From contig NZ_MEHJ01000001.1 of NCBI RefSeq assembly GCF_001746415.1, forward strand, positions 8,190,501 through 8,254,500: a stretch of DNA of 64,000 nt, written 5' to 3'. The position numbers and the translations under genes were made by a program. Of this stretch, positions 6,263-59,818 are shown one piece after another. Below the pieces are notes generated by a model. The model had not been told where the DNA came from, made no database searches, and worked only from the letters and a program-made list of their open reading frames with translations. The DNA comes from Streptomyces agglomeratus (GTDB taxonomy: Bacteria; Actinomycetota; Actinomycetes; Streptomycetales; Streptomycetaceae). Position 1 is the stretch's first letter. The number at the start of each line of letters is the position of its first letter.

Positions 6263-7378
6263 GTGGTTACCGAGGCCCCGGGGTCAGCACGGCTTGTTCT
6301 GGCCCGAAATGTGGTGCATCTCGACCCGGCAGCGGCGGTGTTCGAGGGGATGCAGGAAGGCTGGGCCCGTCAGCAGGCGGCTCGCTTCCTGAAGGCGAAG
6401 ACGATCGATCCGCGTCTGCGTCTGGTGAAGCGTCTGGAGGAGTTCACCGGGTTGTATCCGTGGCAGTGGACGCCGGCGGAGGGGGAGGCGTTCATCGCGC
6501 ACCTGCGCAGCGGCACGCAGCCGATCCAGATGTCCACGGCCCGCACGTACGAGGTGACGATCGCGCTCTTCCTGGAGTATCTGCTCGACCGGCGTTACGG
6601 CTGGGCCGATACCTGTCTGGAGAGGTTCGGCGAGGCCCCGCAAGAGGTCTTCCACGAGGGCAACTCAGTTCTGCACACCGTGGAGTACGAGGCGGACCCT
6701 CGTCGGCGCCCGCTGGACTACGACGAGGTCCAGGCGCTGTTCGACGCGGCCGATGCGCGCCCGGCCAAGGTGCGCGGTCAGGGCCGGAAGGGGGCCTTGA
6801 CCGCGCTGCGGGATGCGGCGGTGCTGAAGACGATCTACGCCTTCGGCACCCGGCGTACCGAGTCGTCGCGGGTCGACCTGGTGGATCTGCGGCGTAATCG
6901 GAGAGCCCCGAAGTTCGGTGCCTACGGCAGCATGATGGTGCGTTTCGGGAAGTCCTCGAAGGGCTCTCCGCCCAAGCGGCGCACGGTGCTGACGGTTCCG
7001 GAGATGGACTGGGTGGTCGATGTCCTCGACGAGTGGATCACGGAGATCCGGCCGCACTTCTCACCGGGCCGGCACCCGGCTCTGTGGATTACTGAACGGG
7101 TTGGACGGCTCTCGCCCCGCTCGGTTAACGAAGCCTTCGTCGCTGCCCGCCAGGACGCGGGCCTGGACGAGGACCTCGACCTGCACTGTCTGCGCCACAG
7201 CTACATCACGCACCTGACCGAGTTCGGTTACCCGGCCCGGTTCGTACAGGAGCAGGTCGGCCACTCTCACGCGGCCACCACCGCCATTTACATGGGCGTC
7301 TCGAACGAGTACCGCAACCAGCTGCTGGAGGCTTCGTTGAAGGGCCGCCTGGGCGACGACTGGAGCGTGACGGTGTGA
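6263..7378 (+). CDS. Tyrosine site-specific recombinase / integrase, 371 aa
   Basis: Residues about 40-125 form a SAM-like core-binding domain. Residues 150-350 are the catalytic domain with the expected residues: Arg in GTRRTE (about 197), Lys near 233, HCLR (308-311), GHSHA (His about 334) and Tyr in AIYMG (343). All catalytic residues are therefore present. The GTG start at 6263 is the first in frame after the palindrome at 6231. The stop overlaps the GTG of the XRE gene (GTGA), and that gene overlaps the next, so the three are translationally coupled. It presumably integrates and excises the surrounding 6.15-kb element at the AAAACGG core. Confidence 0.9.
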   Translation: MVTEAPGSARLVLARNVVHLDPAAAVFEGMQEGWARQQAARFLKAKTIDPRLRLVKRLEEFTGLYPWQWTPAEGEAFIAHLRSGTQPIQMSTARTYEVTIALFLEYLLDRRYGWADTCLERFGEAPQEVFHEGNSVLHTVEYEADPRRRPLDYDEVQALFDAADARPAKVRGQGRKGALTALRDAAVLKTIYAFGTRRTESSRVDLVDLRRNRRAPKFGAYGSMMVRFGKSSKGSPPKRRTVLTVPEMDWVVDVLDEWITEIRPHFSPGRHPALWITERVGRLSPRSVNEAFVAARQDAGLDEDLDLHCLRHSYITHLTEFGYPARFVQEQVGHSHAATTAIYMGVSNEYRNQLLEASLKGRLGDDWSVTV

Positions 7379-26282: not shown

Positions 26283-26898
26283 ATCCCCGCATGTGTTGTG
26301 GTCGAAAGAGTGGTTTGTGGCGTTCGACGACATCGCAGTGACGGGCCCGGGCGGGCGGACGTCAGCGGGGTCATGAGCCCAAAACGAGACAGGGGCCGGT
26401 GGCACGCGCTTTTAGCCGCAGCGAGGCTCGGCGAAGCAGCGGTCCGCCATGGCGGTACGTCACGGCTGTTCCGCGGCGGCCTTGCAGGCCGGTGCCGCTG
26501 CCGGTTGGGAGGCGGCGCGCAGGGACGCGTCGCGTCCGGTTCCGCTCCGGGGCCAAGTAGGTCTGGGCGACGCACAGGAGGCTGGCCCGGCCGCTGTCGG
26601 GCCGATGGGCGGGCATGGTGTTTCGCGTCAGGTCGGCCGACGGGAGCGCCGGCAGAAAAACGGCGTGCTGCATCATGCTTCCCCCTGCTCGCAGTGCCGC
26701 CCGCAGACGGCGTACACCAAAACATGCACCTTCGACGCAAGTTGACCGAAGAAAGACGATCCGATCATCTACACCCGTCGCCCCAACTGTCAACTAAAGT
26801 GATCGGTGTACGAGGGGCTGCTGCACGGAGACGGCGTTGGTGAAATTCTCAACAATGGGATGCGGGCGGCCTTCACTCACTGATATTGATCGGTACCA
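26283..26898. other. Divergent intergenic region between the Tad operon and an XRE gene
   Basis: 616 bases with only mutually overlapping open frames of antisense character. It must hold the leftward promoter of the Tad operon and the rightward promoter of the XRE gene. I saw no strong consensus promoter or hairpin. Confidence 0.4.
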
Positions 26899-55310: not shown

Positions 55311-55730
55311 CTAGATGGTGTGACCGGAGTCTGCCCACTTCGGGTACGCAAGTGCGGGCATGCCGAAGACCGCCCTCGACCGCTCGGCCCGGCTACGCCC
55401 CACGGGCAGGGCATACCTGTGGGTCCCAGGGTGCCGCTGGCGCCTGGCCCCGATCTGCTCCAGCGCGGTGCGCAGCCAGGCGCGCCGGTCGGCCCCCGCA
55501 GGGCGCTCCGAGGCGCCCATCGCCACGATGCGCCGCTCGAACCCGTCGGCACCGCAGTCTCCGGTGACGAACTTCGCGATCGACCGCGCCGGGAGCACCT
55601 GGCCATCCGTCAGCACGATGACCGTCCTCGCCGTGCTGCGGCCCGTATAAGTCGCGGAGAGGGCCTGGTAGGTGACCCCGAGATGCCCTCGGGGCGAGCC
55701 GGCCGTGCGCCCGTCCGGCAGGGTCCGAAG
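55311..55730 (-). pseudogene. mom-like gene, 3-prime part (cut by the NLR cassette)
   Basis: C-terminal 139 codons of a Mom-type adenine methylcarbamoylation family protein: GHLGVTYQALSATYTGRSTARTVIVLTDGQVLPARSIAKF, WLRTALEQIGARRQRHPGTHRYALPVG. The frame is open leftward from the cassette edge and continues exactly in frame into the half at 59504-59818 when the cassette and one CCGTG are removed. Confidence 0.85.
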
Positions 55731-55735
55731 CCGTG

Positions 55736-55786
55736 TGAGAATTTCAGCGCGACATGGCACTTTTCAGTGAGAGGTGGCACCGCCCT
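55736..55786. repeat. Left end repeats of the NLR cassette
   Basis: TGAGAATTTCAGC, then TGGCAC (55755-55760), TTTTCAGT, TGGCACC (55775-55781). Confidence 0.8.
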
Positions 55787-55865
55787 GAGGTCGACTGGTC
55801 TCGGCCTTGGGTGTAGACAATAAAGCTGTGGGTCCTCGGCGTCGTTGTGCTGTGGACCCGGCGCA

Positions 55866-58658
55866 TCAGGCCAGCCCAAGGGCGCGAGCTAGTGCTCCTC
55901 CTGCTTTGCTGAACGGGCCAAGCTGCTCAGGCACTGAAAGAGAAGCGATCAGGGTGAGGAAGGGCAGAAGTCTGGGCATGCAGCCAATCTGCGTCCTCAC
56001 GGTCTGCCCCACCTGCCCGGGACTGCCATCGGTCCCTGGGTAGGGCCTAAAGCGAATGAAGCCTGTGATGACCAGCCCAGCAGTGCAGTAGAGCATCAGC
56101 AGCCACAGCGATGTGCTCGCTTGGCGCGCGTGATAGAAGCCGCACCAGACCACGGCGACCCAGGCGGACTGGAACAGTGTCACGACACGATGACGGGAGA
56201 GTCGTCGCCCCCGTCGCCGAACGGGTGGCGTGGGGATTGAGCCGAGGAGTGCTTCGAGTTGGCGTCGAATCAACGCGTTCTTCTTACCTCCCCCCAAACT
56301 CTGGAGGATTCTGACGGCAGTGAAGCGGGCCGCTGTCAGGTTGACTGCCGGGGCGCCGGGGATCTGCTCGAAGAGGGTAAGTGCTTCGTGGACTGCGGCT
56401 GCGGCCTCAGGCAGATGCTTGCGCGAGCGGTACAACGCCTCTGCGTACGCAGTGAGCGCCCCGGCGAAGCCGAGAGAGGGAATATGGCTGCCGCTCTCCT
56501 GCGCCGCCCGGCGGCTGAGATCAACCGCGCTGCAGCTGGCCGAGAGAGCTTCCTTGTTCCTTCGGGCGCGCAACAGGGTCCAGCTGAGGTTGCCCAGCGC
56601 CACCGCTTCGTGGAAGTTCGCTCCGAGCGTGTGCCAGGTCGCGGCCGCTGTGCGGAAGCAGGTGATCGCTTCGTCCAGCCTGCCGACTCGTCCCAGGGCA
56701 ATGCCCCTGGTCATTACCACGGCTGCGGATCTTGATTCGTCTCCGTGCTGGCGGTAGATGCGGTCGGCGTGCTTGAGAGCGTCGAACACATCACCAGACG
56801 CGTCTGCTTGCATCAAAGCCTGTGCAATGTTCGTCCAGGCTGCCGCCTCGCCGTACTGGTCCTCTAGTTCCTTGAACAAGTGAAGCGCCTGCCTGTGGCA
56901 GGCGAGGCCGCGTTCTCCTTTGTTGAACGCTACGGCGAGATTACCGATGTCGGTGAGTACCAGCGCCTCAAGTTCGCGGTTGCGTGTGGTTCGAGAGATC
57001 TTTAAGGCGTGTTCGAGTGTCTTATTGGCCTCGTGCTCCCGGCGCAGAATGCCGAGGGCTGCTCCATAGGCTTCCAGAGCAACGCCTTCCGCGTCCCGGT
57101 CGGCGACGTCGCGTGCCGCCTGGCGGGCGGCCTGGGAGATGGTGAGCCATTCGTCGATATGGCCAGACGTGTTGAGGTAGCTTGCTAAGGCGCGCGGCAG
57201 GCCAAGGATGATGCGCTTTTGTTCCTGGGACGTGCTGTCTGTTGAAGCGGCGACGAGGTTGGGTAACTCCGCGTCGAGCCACTTCACAGCCTGCTCTTTG
57301 GTTTCGAAGCGTGGCGATCTGGTCGCGGACGGGTTGGGATCGAGGTGGGTGCCAGCAGCCTGCGCACTCGTTGCGTAGTACTCCAGCAGTTGGCGTCTAG
57401 CCTGTTCGTAGAGACGTTTGGCCTGGGGGTGGCTTCGACCGTAGGCATCGGCCTGTTCGCTGGCGTAAGCCCGGATCAGGTCGTGCATCCGCCACCGGTC
57501 CTGAGCTGGTACCTGCTCCAGGAGATGGGTCTGCGCGAGTTCGAGCAGGAGGGACCGTATCTCATCGGGGTGCTGGTCCGTCAGGACAGCGGCGGCCTCG
57601 GTGGAGATGTCCGAGCCGGGGTTGAGTGCCAGGAGCCGGAAGGTCTCGGTCAAGGGGCCGGACAGGTGGCGACTGGACAGGTCGAAGGACGCGCGCACAG
57701 CGCGTTCCCCGTCGTCGAGATGCTCCAGACGAGTGCGCTCCTGCTTGAACTCGGTGGCCAGTCCGGCCACCTGCCGGCCCCGGTCGGCGATGAGGCGGGC
57801 AGCAGAAATCTGCAGGGCGAGCGGCAGGTATCCGCACAGCAAGGCCAGACTCTGCGCCGTGGTTGCGTCTTGGGAGATGCGCGAGTCGGCAGGGTCGGCG
57901 GTGCGCAGCGCGGTGTCCAGCAGGTTCACTGCCGCCTCGGGCGACAGGACGGGGAGGTCGAGTAGGCGGGCGCCCAGGGTGGCGAGCGTGTCCCGAGAGG
58001 TCACGAGCAGCCGATGGCGACCAGAGGCCGGCCGTAGCGGGCGCACTTGTTCAGCCCTGGAGGCGTTGTCCGCCACCACCAGAACACGGCGGCCCTCGGC
58101 GGCCAGGGCACTCAGCCGAGAATGATAGAGCCCTTGTCGTTCTTCCAAGGTATGTGGGATGAACTCCTGGGCGACGCCCAAGCCGCGCAGCAGTCTCTCC
58201 AGAGCCTGGGAGGGCTGGAGGGGGGTCTCGTCGTAGCCGTGCAGGTCCACGAAGAGCGTTCCGTCGAACTGGCCCTCCTCGCACCCGGTGTGACCAGCTG
58301 CCAGAGCGAGAGAGGTCTTGCCGACGCCGGGCAGCCCGGCCACCGAGACGATGACTCCCTGCCGAGTCGGATTGCCCGTGCTTGTGTCCAGCGCCTGAAG
58401 CAGCTCGGCCAGTTCCCGGTCTCGACCGGTAAAGCCTGCTGGAGGAGGAGGCAAGGACGCCAGAGCGGTCGGGGCGGCCGGTCCGGTGAACGTGATGTTC
58501 ACATCACCGGCGGTGTTGTTGACCATGGCCAGCGATCCGTACACGACCGAGTCGACCACCCACTGACCCGCCCCCGGCTCCTGGCCAGCGTCGGGCGTGG
58601 GGGTGTCAGCCGCCGACGGGCCGCGGCGCTGCCGCGTGCGGCGTCGGAAGGACCTCAC
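55866..58658 (-). CDS. STAND NTPase: N-terminal amyloid-like motif, NB-ARC, TPR, C-terminal TM (NLR-like), 930 aa
   Basis: Residues 36-55 carry the motif shared with the upstream gene (D36-S37...G41...V46...T49, G51-D52-V53...I55). NB-ARC core: FTGRDRELAELL (76-87), Walker A GLPGVGKTS (108-116), Walker B VLVVADNA (192-199), sensor LLVTSRD (217-223), and MHDLIRAYA (about 400). Then about eight TPR-like helical hairpins (about 520-800) for ligand sensing, and two C-terminal hydrophobic helices (about 840-880). GTG 58658 overlaps the stop of the membrane gene (GTGA), so the pair is coupled. Likely a stress or phage sensor; no enzymatic effector domain is attached. Confidence 0.9.
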   Translation of the reverse strand: MRSFRRRTRQRRGPSAADTPTPDAGQEPGAGQWVVDSVVYGSLAMVNNTAGDVNITFTGPAAPTALASLPPPPAGFTGRDRELAELLQALDTSTGNPTRQGVIVSVAGLPGVGKTSLALAAGHTGCEEGQFDGTLFVDLHGYDETPLQPSQALERLLRGLGVAQEFIPHTLEERQGLYHSRLSALAAEGRRVLVVADNASRAEQVRPLRPASGRHRLLVTSRDTLATLGARLLDLPVLSPEAAVNLLDTALRTADPADSRISQDATTAQSLALLCGYLPLALQISAARLIADRGRQVAGLATEFKQERTRLEHLDDGERAVRASFDLSSRHLSGPLTETFRLLALNPGSDISTEAAAVLTDQHPDEIRSLLLELAQTHLLEQVPAQDRWRMHDLIRAYASEQADAYGRSHPQAKRLYEQARRQLLEYYATSAQAAGTHLDPNPSATRSPRFETKEQAVKWLDAELPNLVAASTDSTSQEQKRIILGLPRALASYLNTSGHIDEWLTISQAARQAARDVADRDAEGVALEAYGAALGILRREHEANKTLEHALKISRTTRNRELEALVLTDIGNLAVAFNKGERGLACHRQALHLFKELEDQYGEAAAWTNIAQALMQADASGDVFDALKHADRIYRQHGDESRSAAVVMTRGIALGRVGRLDEAITCFRTAAATWHTLGANFHEAVALGNLSWTLLRARRNKEALSASCSAVDLSRRAAQESGSHIPSLGFAGALTAYAEALYRSRKHLPEAAAAVHEALTLFEQIPGAPAVNLTAARFTAVRILQSLGGGKKNALIRRQLEALLGSIPTPPVRRRGRRLSRHRVVTLFQSAWVAVVWCGFYHARQASTSLWLLMLYCTAGLVITGFIRFRPYPGTDGSPGQVGQTVRTQIGCMPRLLPFLTLIASLSVPEQLGPFSKAGGALARALGLA

Positions 58659-59095
58659 GGGCCCTCGATCTCCACATTCCCGTCCGTGCTCTGCACCTGG
58701 TCGACCGGCCCGGACGTCTGGGAGTTACGAACGGACTGTCCGCCATCCGGTACGGGGGGCATGCCGACGGGCGGAACAGCGCCTGTGGGCGGACCTGTGG
58801 CCGGCAGGGATGCGGGAGCGTGGTGGTTGATGCGCACATTTCCGCCGGTCCGGGCGACCTGAGTGGCAGCTCCGCCGAGCGTGCTGTTCTCCACGGACTG
58901 ACTGCCGCCCTCTTGTCGGTTTTGTCGGAGTCCGGCCATTGCCACCCCCAGGCCGGCCAGGGCCACGAACAAGCCCAGCACACTGGCCCATTTGTCCGCG
59001 GCATCCAGCCCCACCAGCATTAGATGCACGGCAAGCCCCACCACGGCGACGGCCGCAACCGTCCCACCAACCCATACCTGAACGCGCCCAGTCAT
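58655..59095 (-). CDS. Two-TM protein with two amyloid-like signalling motifs, 146 aa
   Basis: Two TM helices (about 7-30 and 36-56), then a cytoplasmic tail with two gapless copies of one motif: N70-S71, G75, V80, T83, G85-N86-V87, I89, and N124-S125, G129, V134, T137, G139-N140-V141, I143. The NB-ARC protein has the same spacing at its N terminus. Conserved polar/Gly positions alternating with hydrophobic ones are typical of RHIM/BASS-type amyloid motifs. The protein is a candidate membrane effector or anchor triggered by templating from the NLR; that role is inference. Confidence 0.7.
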   Translation of the reverse strand: MTGRVQVWVGGTVAAVAVVGLAVHLMLVGLDAADKWASVLGLFVALAGLGVAMAGLRQNRQEGGSQSVENSTLGGAATQVARTGGNVRINHHAPASLPATGPPTGAVPPVGMPPVPDGGQSVRNSQTSGPVDQVQSTDGNVEIEGP

Positions 59096-59370
59096 CGTCT
59101 CATCGTCCCTCCACGGGCCCGACGACGGACCTCCTCATGCACAACCGGTGACAACCTTGTTACACAGAGCCCGTCGCCTTGCGCGAGGAACAGTGGCCGG
59201 GGCGTACACGGTGGTGTCCCGCCCTGGCCCACGCGCAATCCCGCGTCGACCGGGGTCGTTGGCTCAGGCGAGTAAGCGCTCAACTGCCCTTGACGGCCCA
59301 TCCATGCTGATCTGTCTCATGGGTACAGAAGACACAGGCAAAGGTCCTGTACAGATGTATTCGATCAAAG

Positions 59371-59503
59371 CGGTGCCAGAAGGACTGAAAGGCCAGTAAG
59401 GTGCCATCCCTTATCGAAATCCGGTGCCAAGTCACCCTGACAGAACTTGCCAAATTCGCAGATCAACGCCCACTTCTAGCGCCAGCCTCTGCTGAAATTC
59501 TCA
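59371..59503. repeat. Right end repeats of the NLR cassette
   Basis: GGTGCCA at 59372-59378, 59400-59406 and 59423-59429, ACTGAAA at 59384-59390, and the terminal GCTGAAATTCTCA at 59491-59503. The rest of 59096-59503 has no gene and should contain the promoter of the two-gene operon. Confidence 0.8.
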
Positions 59504-59818
59504 CCGTGCGACGGGGTCCGCGTAGGTGACCACTCCCCGCACGCCGCGGCCTGCGGCCAGACGCAGGGCACCCGCGACGGCGAAGCTCTCCCCGTTGCTC
59601 GCCACCGAGGGGGACAAGCACACCCTCGACATTTCCAACGCCTCCGTATACGGGCACAGCGACGGGAAAACCCTGGTCAGAGCACGACGGCTCATCGGGA
59701 CGCCCAGGACGACGACACCCACCAGCAGGCTGCCGTCGACCACCTGGCCGTCGTCGCCCCCTGCGGGCTCGAGGTCCAGCAGCCCGAACCGGTGGACCGC
59801 CGCGGGGATTATCTGCAT
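59504..59818 (-). pseudogene. mom-like gene, 5-prime part
   Basis: From ATG 59818: IIPAAVHRFGLLDLEPAGG, VVVLGVPMSRRALTRVFP, PYTEALEMSRVCLSPSVASNGESFAVAGALRLAAGRGVRGV, VTYADPVAR, then the cassette. These are the GNAT-like core motifs of Mom family proteins (LSR, N-ESW-like position, FSDP-like YADP). Joined to 55730 the frame is exact, giving 244 aa. The usual N-terminal 60-70 residues are absent; coding-like sequence upstream (HDLQWYLT) is in another frame, so the gene may also be damaged there. Confidence 0.8.

Follow-up and report, generated by a model that had tools for sequence, protein, structure and literature searches.

How a stretch of DNA that encodes no recognized transposase could have entered a gene, and what it brought along, is the question raised by a cassette near one end of a Streptomyces agglomeratus chromosome. 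The window analyzed here comprises 64,000 nucleotides (contig C1, NZ_MEHJ01000001.1, positions 8190501–8254500) and lies close to one end of an 8.3-Mb contig in a genome of 9.1 Mb. The cassette spans window positions 55736–59503 (3,768 bp), is flanked on both sides by CCGTG, and interrupts a mom-like gene. It is probably a non-autonomous Tn7-like element that was moved in trans, with a cargo that resembles an immune pair of NOD-like receptor (NLR)-type sensor and membrane effector. An earlier interpretation of the same DNA, herein called the sequence-only reading, had described a mobile cassette that lacks a transposase and carries an NLR-like module; this description is supported by the ends, the duplication, the empty sites in relatives, and the two-gene cargo. 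Coordinates of all features are collected in Table 1.

The two ends have the architecture of transposon termini. Read inward, the tips TGAGAATTTCAGC at 55736 (+) and 59503 (−) are identical in 13 of 13 bases, and both ends exhibit asymmetric arrays of transposase-site-like repeats. The left end (LE) contains two exact TGGCAC units (55755 and 55775) and the right end (RE) three (59373, 59401, and 59424 on the − strand), with an additional degenerate TGGCGC unit 19 bases inward of the RE tip. The inverted ends, the repeated TGGCAC units, and the perfect 5-bp CCGTG duplication named in the sequence-only reading were thus all recovered on re-examination. A 45-base LE pattern with up to three mismatches has four occurrences among 392 genus genomes, spread over 3 of them, and its reversed control gave no match among the rows listed for these genomes; hence, the LE of the cassette is not a chance occurrence. 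Both ends are complete in the cassette only, as determined by a scan of 344,024 bases of the chromosome arm (a total that includes overlaps, with two junctions left unbridged). A solitary tip-like TGAAATTCTCA is located at window position 26841; no TGGCAC units accompany it at the offsets where they would be expected.

Once the cassette and one CCGTG are excised, the sequence reads open over 244 codons up to a stop. The Pfam profile Mom (PF25680, E 5.4e-14) is matched by this joined frame at positions 39–202 of 202, with 52.8 bits over a cut-off of 27.1, which confirms the previously claimed insertion in a mom-like gene and assigns both halves to one protein profile. Matches of the joined reading occur in at least 30 of the 392 genus genomes. 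Genome counts throughout are lower bounds, with few candidates scored per genome: two for the LE query, up to six for TnsA, seven for mom, and 10 for the small protein. From 18 of the 30 matching genomes, 20 loci were fetched, and the insertion point (codon 103) is spanned by local protein alignments in 11 of them. The empty site was checked at the DNA level in two relatives, G158 (L084) and G147 (L085): both read GTCGCACGGCTTCGG, with a single CACGG, which corresponds to CCGTG on the + strand, and without an insert. Because these two relatives show the site uninterrupted and with one 5-bp copy, the kind of site that the sequence-only reading had suggested looking for, insertion of the cassette into the mom-like gene is established. 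The in-frame repair claimed by the sequence-only reading holds insofar as the joined frame is open and matches Mom, but the gene lacks its 5' part regardless and is incomplete even apart from the cassette. Profile positions 1 to 38 are missing from the window's copy; in the G158 copy, the match begins at position 2, and the frame, with the start codon left unassigned, extends about 70 codons farther upstream. Since DNA similarity to G158 and G147 begins sharply at 59802, this 5' truncation is independent of the cassette insertion.

Mom-like genes look like an insertion hotspot in their own right. The mom gene of G158 (L084, 2321–15689) is interrupted close to codon 152, where 13.4 kb with a phage-integrase–type frame and an asparagine-synthase gene, possibly of a lasso-peptide cluster, are inserted. 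That of G147 (L085, 2303–10741) is broken at about codon 56 by an insert of 8.4 kb that holds two phage-integrase–type frames, one of them just under the cut-off. Among the 20 mom loci, alignments start or stop at codons 151–154 in seven and near codon 56 in three; the breaks are confirmed as insertions for G158 and G147, and the other alignment breaks are candidates.

The family of the ends was determined from their occurrence elsewhere. A 67-base LE query found two sites in this genome and one in the 392 genus genomes (G258). An exact LE scan of the species-genome collection, which may omit records of the window's own genome, returned two records, Streptomyces triculaminicus JCM 4242, whose end sequence is that of G258, and Streptomyces sp. 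PH10-H1. In S. triculaminicus, cassette-type ends enclose 9.19 kb with GGTAC on either side, and this element contains TniQ, a TniB-type ATPase, a DDE transposase, a TnsA-like endonuclease, and an NB-ARC gene. Its DDE transposase is spread over two frames (L017, about 11646), either by a frameshift or by a draft or sequencing error. In PH10-H1, open frames for a TnsA-like protein (327 amino acids, NCBIfam NF033179 over cut-off), a DDE transposase (868), a TniB-type protein (427), and TniQ (637) lead to the LE; LE and RE lie on separate contigs, and their 5-bp flanks agree (GCAAC/GTTGC). The element of G139 has flanks that agree across two contigs (GGTCC/GGACC) and an RE that differs in two unit bases. 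Its LE was considered as a solitary end and rejected, since the flank agrees with that of the RE on the other contig beside tns genes; G139 is regarded as carrying an element that encodes its own transposase. The LE of the cassette is 83% identical to that of S. triculaminicus over 48 bases and 87% identical to that of PH10-H1 over 45, the RE is 72 to 73% identical over 63 to 68 bases, and the unit offsets are identical or within one base (left 19 and 39; right 74, 97, and 125). Family matches among the proteins of the relatives are NF033179 TnsA-like, TniB, and TniQ. TnsA-like matches as such are widespread, in at least 192 of the 392 genus genomes (E 0.001), many of them distant.

The ends sought around other cargo thus flank TnsA/DDE/TniB/TniQ elements in other genomes, and because of this match, the cassette is best classified as a non-autonomous Tn7-like element; by sequence comparison, its ends are Tn7-like and not of the IS21 type. 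Tn7-like transposons and the cassette have near-identical tips, transposase-site-like arrays, and a 5-bp duplication in common. However, the former encode TnsB together with TnsA, TnsC, and TniQ, whereas the two recognized genes of the cassette (55866–58658 and 58655–59095, both on the − strand) are neither transposase nor tns genes; the lack of a transposase had been noted from the sequence.

Two further observations concern the autonomous relatives. Two plasmids of Nocardia sp. NBC_01377 share an identical 5,779-bp stretch with TnsA, DDE, TniB, and TniQ genes (L134 and L136, 8730–14508). Because the copies carry different 5-bp duplications (TCCGG and ACAAG), this element appears to have moved recently. 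Its tip differs (TGTGACGA), with units at 19/39 in the LE and 19/73/96 in the RE, and it carries no annotated cargo, which suits it as a minimal bench system. PH10-H1 contains a second RE-like cluster just upstream of tnsA (L068, 854–911), with the spacing kept and no tip—an old end or a regulatory site—and bases 6430–6476 of the S. triculaminicus element give a weak match at a comparable place.

For the movement of the cassette, it is proposed that TnsB (DDE) together with TnsA, TniB/TnsC, and TniQ, all encoded elsewhere, would bind the site arrays of LE and RE. The borrowed transposase would then excise the cassette and paste it into the mom-like gene, yielding the 5-bp duplication. Such movement in trans is the simplest reading and is considered likely. 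A precedent is given by tni-defective elements of the Tn5053/Tn402 group and class 1 integrons, which have intact ends and 5-bp repeats and are served by tni in trans (PMC7765201). These elements resemble the cassette in belonging to a related superfamily and in combining intact ends with an incomplete transposition module; they differ in family, in their res-site targets, in their resistance or mercury cargo, and in often retaining tni remnants.

The larger of the two cargo genes encodes an NB-ARC/TPR protein with a P-loop at residue 108, TSRD at 220, GYLPLAL, and MHD at 391, followed by two hydrophobic segments near the C terminus. Residues 61 to 670 match the AfsR structures 8k60 and 8jke (E 5e-63 and 2.5e-62). 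The NB-ARC/TPR core is herein common to both, whereas the cassette protein has no SARP domain and exhibits an extra N-terminal motif and the hydrophobic C terminus. The smaller gene encodes a two-helix membrane protein, in the tail of which a 24-residue motif occurs twice. Its hydrophobic segments comprise residues 12 to 30 and 38 to 56, and a low-confidence model places helices at 3 to 27 and 33 to 60. Eighteen homologues, itself included, are among the matches listed, and relatives occur in at least 35 of the 392 genus genomes.

Both proteins carry a similar motif. Residues 32 to 55 of the NB-ARC protein (QWVVDSVVYGSLAMVNNTAGDVNI) share 9 of 24 identities with each repeat of the small protein, with the register kept. 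They are the best place in the whole NB-ARC protein for the partner repeats (score 66 versus 25 for the next), and when its first 80 residues were shuffled 5000 times, 66 was never reached. For 120 listed NB-ARC homologues, evaluated over the first 120 residues, the median best motif score is 13, and a single one, from S. hiroshimensis, exceeds the window's score with 82. This control is weakened by annotated starts that fall inside the motif in P0019, the window's own protein, and P0020 from S. xantholiticus; those of other homologues may also cut it. One contig of S. xantholiticus seems to encode both of two proteins, 87% and 88% identical to those of the cassette.

With a similar motif at the N terminus of an NLR and at the C terminus of the neighboring effector, the cargo resembles a bacterial NLR amyloid-signaling pair. 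Bacterial amyloid signaling sequences (BASS) are described at the N termini of NLRs and at the C termini of neighboring Bell-domain effectors (PMC8086366, PMC12261475, PMC9815663). Compared by description with these accounts, the cassette pair agrees in having a short motif at the NLR N terminus and at the C terminus of the adjoining effector; the BASS effectors are Bell-domain proteins, whereas the presumed effector of the cassette has two membrane helices and carries the motif twice. By analogy, the cytosolic NB-ARC/TPR sensor would detect a signal, probably of infection, and its N-terminal motif would template the matching motif in the tail of the membrane protein in an amyloid-like manner. 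The nucleated motif would gather the membrane protein into a membrane-damaging effector of an abortive response. The trigger, the amyloid-like templating, the membrane damage, and the defense role are all conjectural extensions of this analogy.

The pair is also found outside the cassette. The motif was compared in 12 of 30 loci (L104–L115, the window's own included); L116 meets a contig end, L117 and L118 gave no clean pair reading, and L119–L133 were outside this comparison. All 11 other loci contain a motif in similar register near the start of the reading frame after the small protein, with the start codons of these frames left unassigned. Of four such frames scanned with Pfam, one contains NACHT over cut-off and is a clear STAND-type NTPase (STAND, signal transduction ATPases with numerous domains). 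Motifs paired within their own locus score 48.9 on average versus 38.2 when shuffled (31 of 20,000 as high), and for seven representatives, true pairings score 50.7 and all pairings taken together 38.0 (a value as high was reached by 78 of 5040 permutations). This pairing supports the module, short of proof. Two further pairs of a small protein and an NB-ARC relative exist in the same genome without Tn7-like ends (C1:7647830–7649590, L148, and C1:7730120–7731188, L149). Therefore, the two-gene module is more general in the genus, with the cassette as one carrier. By eye, both proteins of L148 seem to carry a different common variant of the motif, which is repeated.

Several observations weigh against the proposed reading and concern the mover as well as the cargo. 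As to the mover, a DDE search of this genome found no intact matching transposase but one fragment with a stop, which covers residues 66 to 259 of the 632-residue query and adjoins a fragment of TnsA at about 8.017 Mb. Nor was a second transposase-less cassette with such ends found, so that movement in trans rests on a single case. Because the genome shows no intact family element, the mover would have been lost, left in the donor, or carried on a plasmid since lost. The absence of a mobilizing element would also fit an autonomous Tn7-like element that entered mom and from which an internal deletion then removed tnsABC-tniQ while sparing ends and cargo, and the S. triculaminicus relative indeed holds tns genes plus an NB-ARC gene. 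Yet, the two autonomous relatives have 63 and 79 bases between the LE tip and the stop of tniQ, as opposed to 130 between tip and NB-ARC stop in the cassette, and LE similarity by BLAST ends right after the second unit, with no clear tniQ remnant. A permissive gapped alignment extends past the LE at about 66 to 68% identity, which was judged to be background. Since tips and duplication are perfect, the deletion would have had to be recent and clean, and this course of events is regarded as rather unlikely. Far less probable still is an IS21-type cassette mobilized by IstA/IstB, as favored by the sequence-only reading. IS21 elements also bear multiple internal repeats at inverted ends; however, the cassette-type ends flank tns genes in S. 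triculaminicus and PH10-H1, and geometry and 5-bp duplication suit Tn7-like transposition. An istA/istB element with matching ends, which that reading suggested looking for, did not emerge: the genome has four IstB-like loci, none of them close to one of the two LEs found genome-wide, and the two IstB regions that were read are without cassette-type ends.

As to the cargo, the best-characterized relative is AfsR, a regulator. PADLOC reports only TPR (2.4e-7) and a weak mad8 (8e-4) on the NB-ARC protein, and it finds no specific anti-phage system for the pair and nothing on the small membrane protein. The model of the latter is poor (mean predicted local distance difference test score of 50.8) and unfit for a fold search. 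In the loci compared above, the frames of L105 and L106 match nSTAND_NTPase5 below cut-off, and that of L108 has no Pfam match; the 24-residue segments used to test pairing had been selected by eye, and the pairing signal could also stem from common descent of the gene pairs. Moreover, the window's own pair scores 35, while its small protein scores 44 with the L105 sensor, and its sensor 50 and 49 with the small proteins of L105 and L106. The cargo could thus be an AfsR-like regulator module instead of an immune one, for which the lack of a specific PADLOC system and the closeness of AfsR speak, it being the closest solved relative and the top NCBIfam match (far under cut-off). That match starts at profile position 285, however, and the SARP DNA-binding part is absent; the partner is a membrane protein, and the four scanned neighbors of relatives comprise one NACHT NTPase over cut-off and two nSTAND-like ones below. 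A regulatory cargo is hence considered the less likely alternative, though a serious one, and the pair of immune sensor and membrane effector is retained as the probable cargo.

The surroundings of the cassette were also searched for traces of its family. Degraded TnsA and DDE fragments are located at C1:8016616–8017830, and a lone cassette-type LE lies 10 kb off at C1:8027700; they are probably relics of older Tn7-like insertions. That LE (three mismatches) was considered as a second cassette and rejected, with no RE downstream or in the scanned arm (344 kb). An RE-like match at 8253802, with three unit and 11 tip mismatches, was taken as chance. Nucleotide BLAST of the cassette interior against the Tn7-like elements gave short weak matches only (best 31 bases, E 0.004), and the many short tblastx matches of the cassette to these elements were set aside as composition noise by their look. 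No cassette ends were found on plasmids in PLSDB, in which the whole cassette has weak partial matches to 12 records, mostly to TPR/NB-ARC genes, and one pattern scan of viral contigs returned nothing.

Table 1. Coordinates of the cassette, its ends and cargo, and the interrupted gene within the window
Feature	Position	Strand	Remarks
Target-site duplication CCGTG, left copy	55731..55735	.	Sequence; found once in the empty sites of G158 and G147
Target-site duplication CCGTG, right copy	59504..59508	.	Sequence; single copy in empty sites
Left end (LE)	55736..55780	+	Tip TGAGAATTTCAGC; TGGCAC at offsets 19, 39
Right end (RE)	59373..59503	-	Tip TGAGAATTTCAGC; TGGCGC at 19, TGGCAC at 74, 97, 125
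NB-ARC/TPR protein	55866..58658	-	930 amino acids, GTG start; Pfam NB-ARC and TPR_12 over cut-off
NB-ARC N-terminal motif, residues 32-55	58494..58565	-	QWVVDSVVYGSLAMVNNTAGDVNI
Small membrane protein	58655..59095	-	146 amino acids, 4-base overlap with NB-ARC gene; no Pfam match
Motif repeat 1, small protein residues 66-89	58829..58900	-	
Motif repeat 2, small protein residues 120-143	58667..58738	-	
mom-like gene, 5' half	59509..59818	-	Matches Pfam Mom; similarity to two relatives starts at 59802 and runs inward
mom-like gene, 3' half	55311..55735	-	Joined frame reaches last Pfam Mom position
mom loci aligned across codon 103			L084, L085, L086, L088, L093, L094, L095, L099, L100, L101, L102

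Elements of this general kind have been named, in contrast to the sequence-only reading, which knew of no named class like it. Mobile insertion cassettes consist of passenger genes between transposon ends without a transposase; among them, MIC231 has ends of the IS231 type and a cargo unlike that of the cassette. The cassette, likewise, contains passenger genes between the ends of a known element and no transposase. Mobile insertion cassettes such as MIC231 are recorded as named elements in PMC6542083, and tni-defective Tn402 elements with class 1 integrons are a second named group. Tn7-like elements commonly carry defense cargo, and Benler et al. 2021 reported known innate defense systems on 26% of transposons; their survey scanned around tnsB, and its Table 1 lists no NB-ARC/NLR system (PMC8649781). 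The cassette falls outside this survey because of the scan around tnsB. Transposition-deficient elements with intact ends and defense genes on Tn7-like transposons are, thus, already known. A transposase-less Tn7-like cassette with NLR cargo was not found described in the titles and abstract openings of the matches listed, a search that left subscription literature largely uncovered.

A wider proposal, put forward tentatively and thought more doubtful than the reading of this single locus, is that transposase-less Tn7-like cassettes are an overlooked vehicle of immune genes in actinomycetes, and that the present one is spreading NLR–effector pairs of a new type, whose STAND sensor would template the two-helix membrane effector via a paired tail motif. 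If a borrowed transposase does move such cassettes, cargo surveys based on tnsB would undercount mobile immune genes, and the geometry of the ends would offer a route to find such cassettes without any transposase gene. The pair may serve as a compact bacterial model for NLR signaling by motif templating beyond Bell-domain effectors, and pairs of a sensor and a membrane protein may spread by borrowing the machinery of another element.

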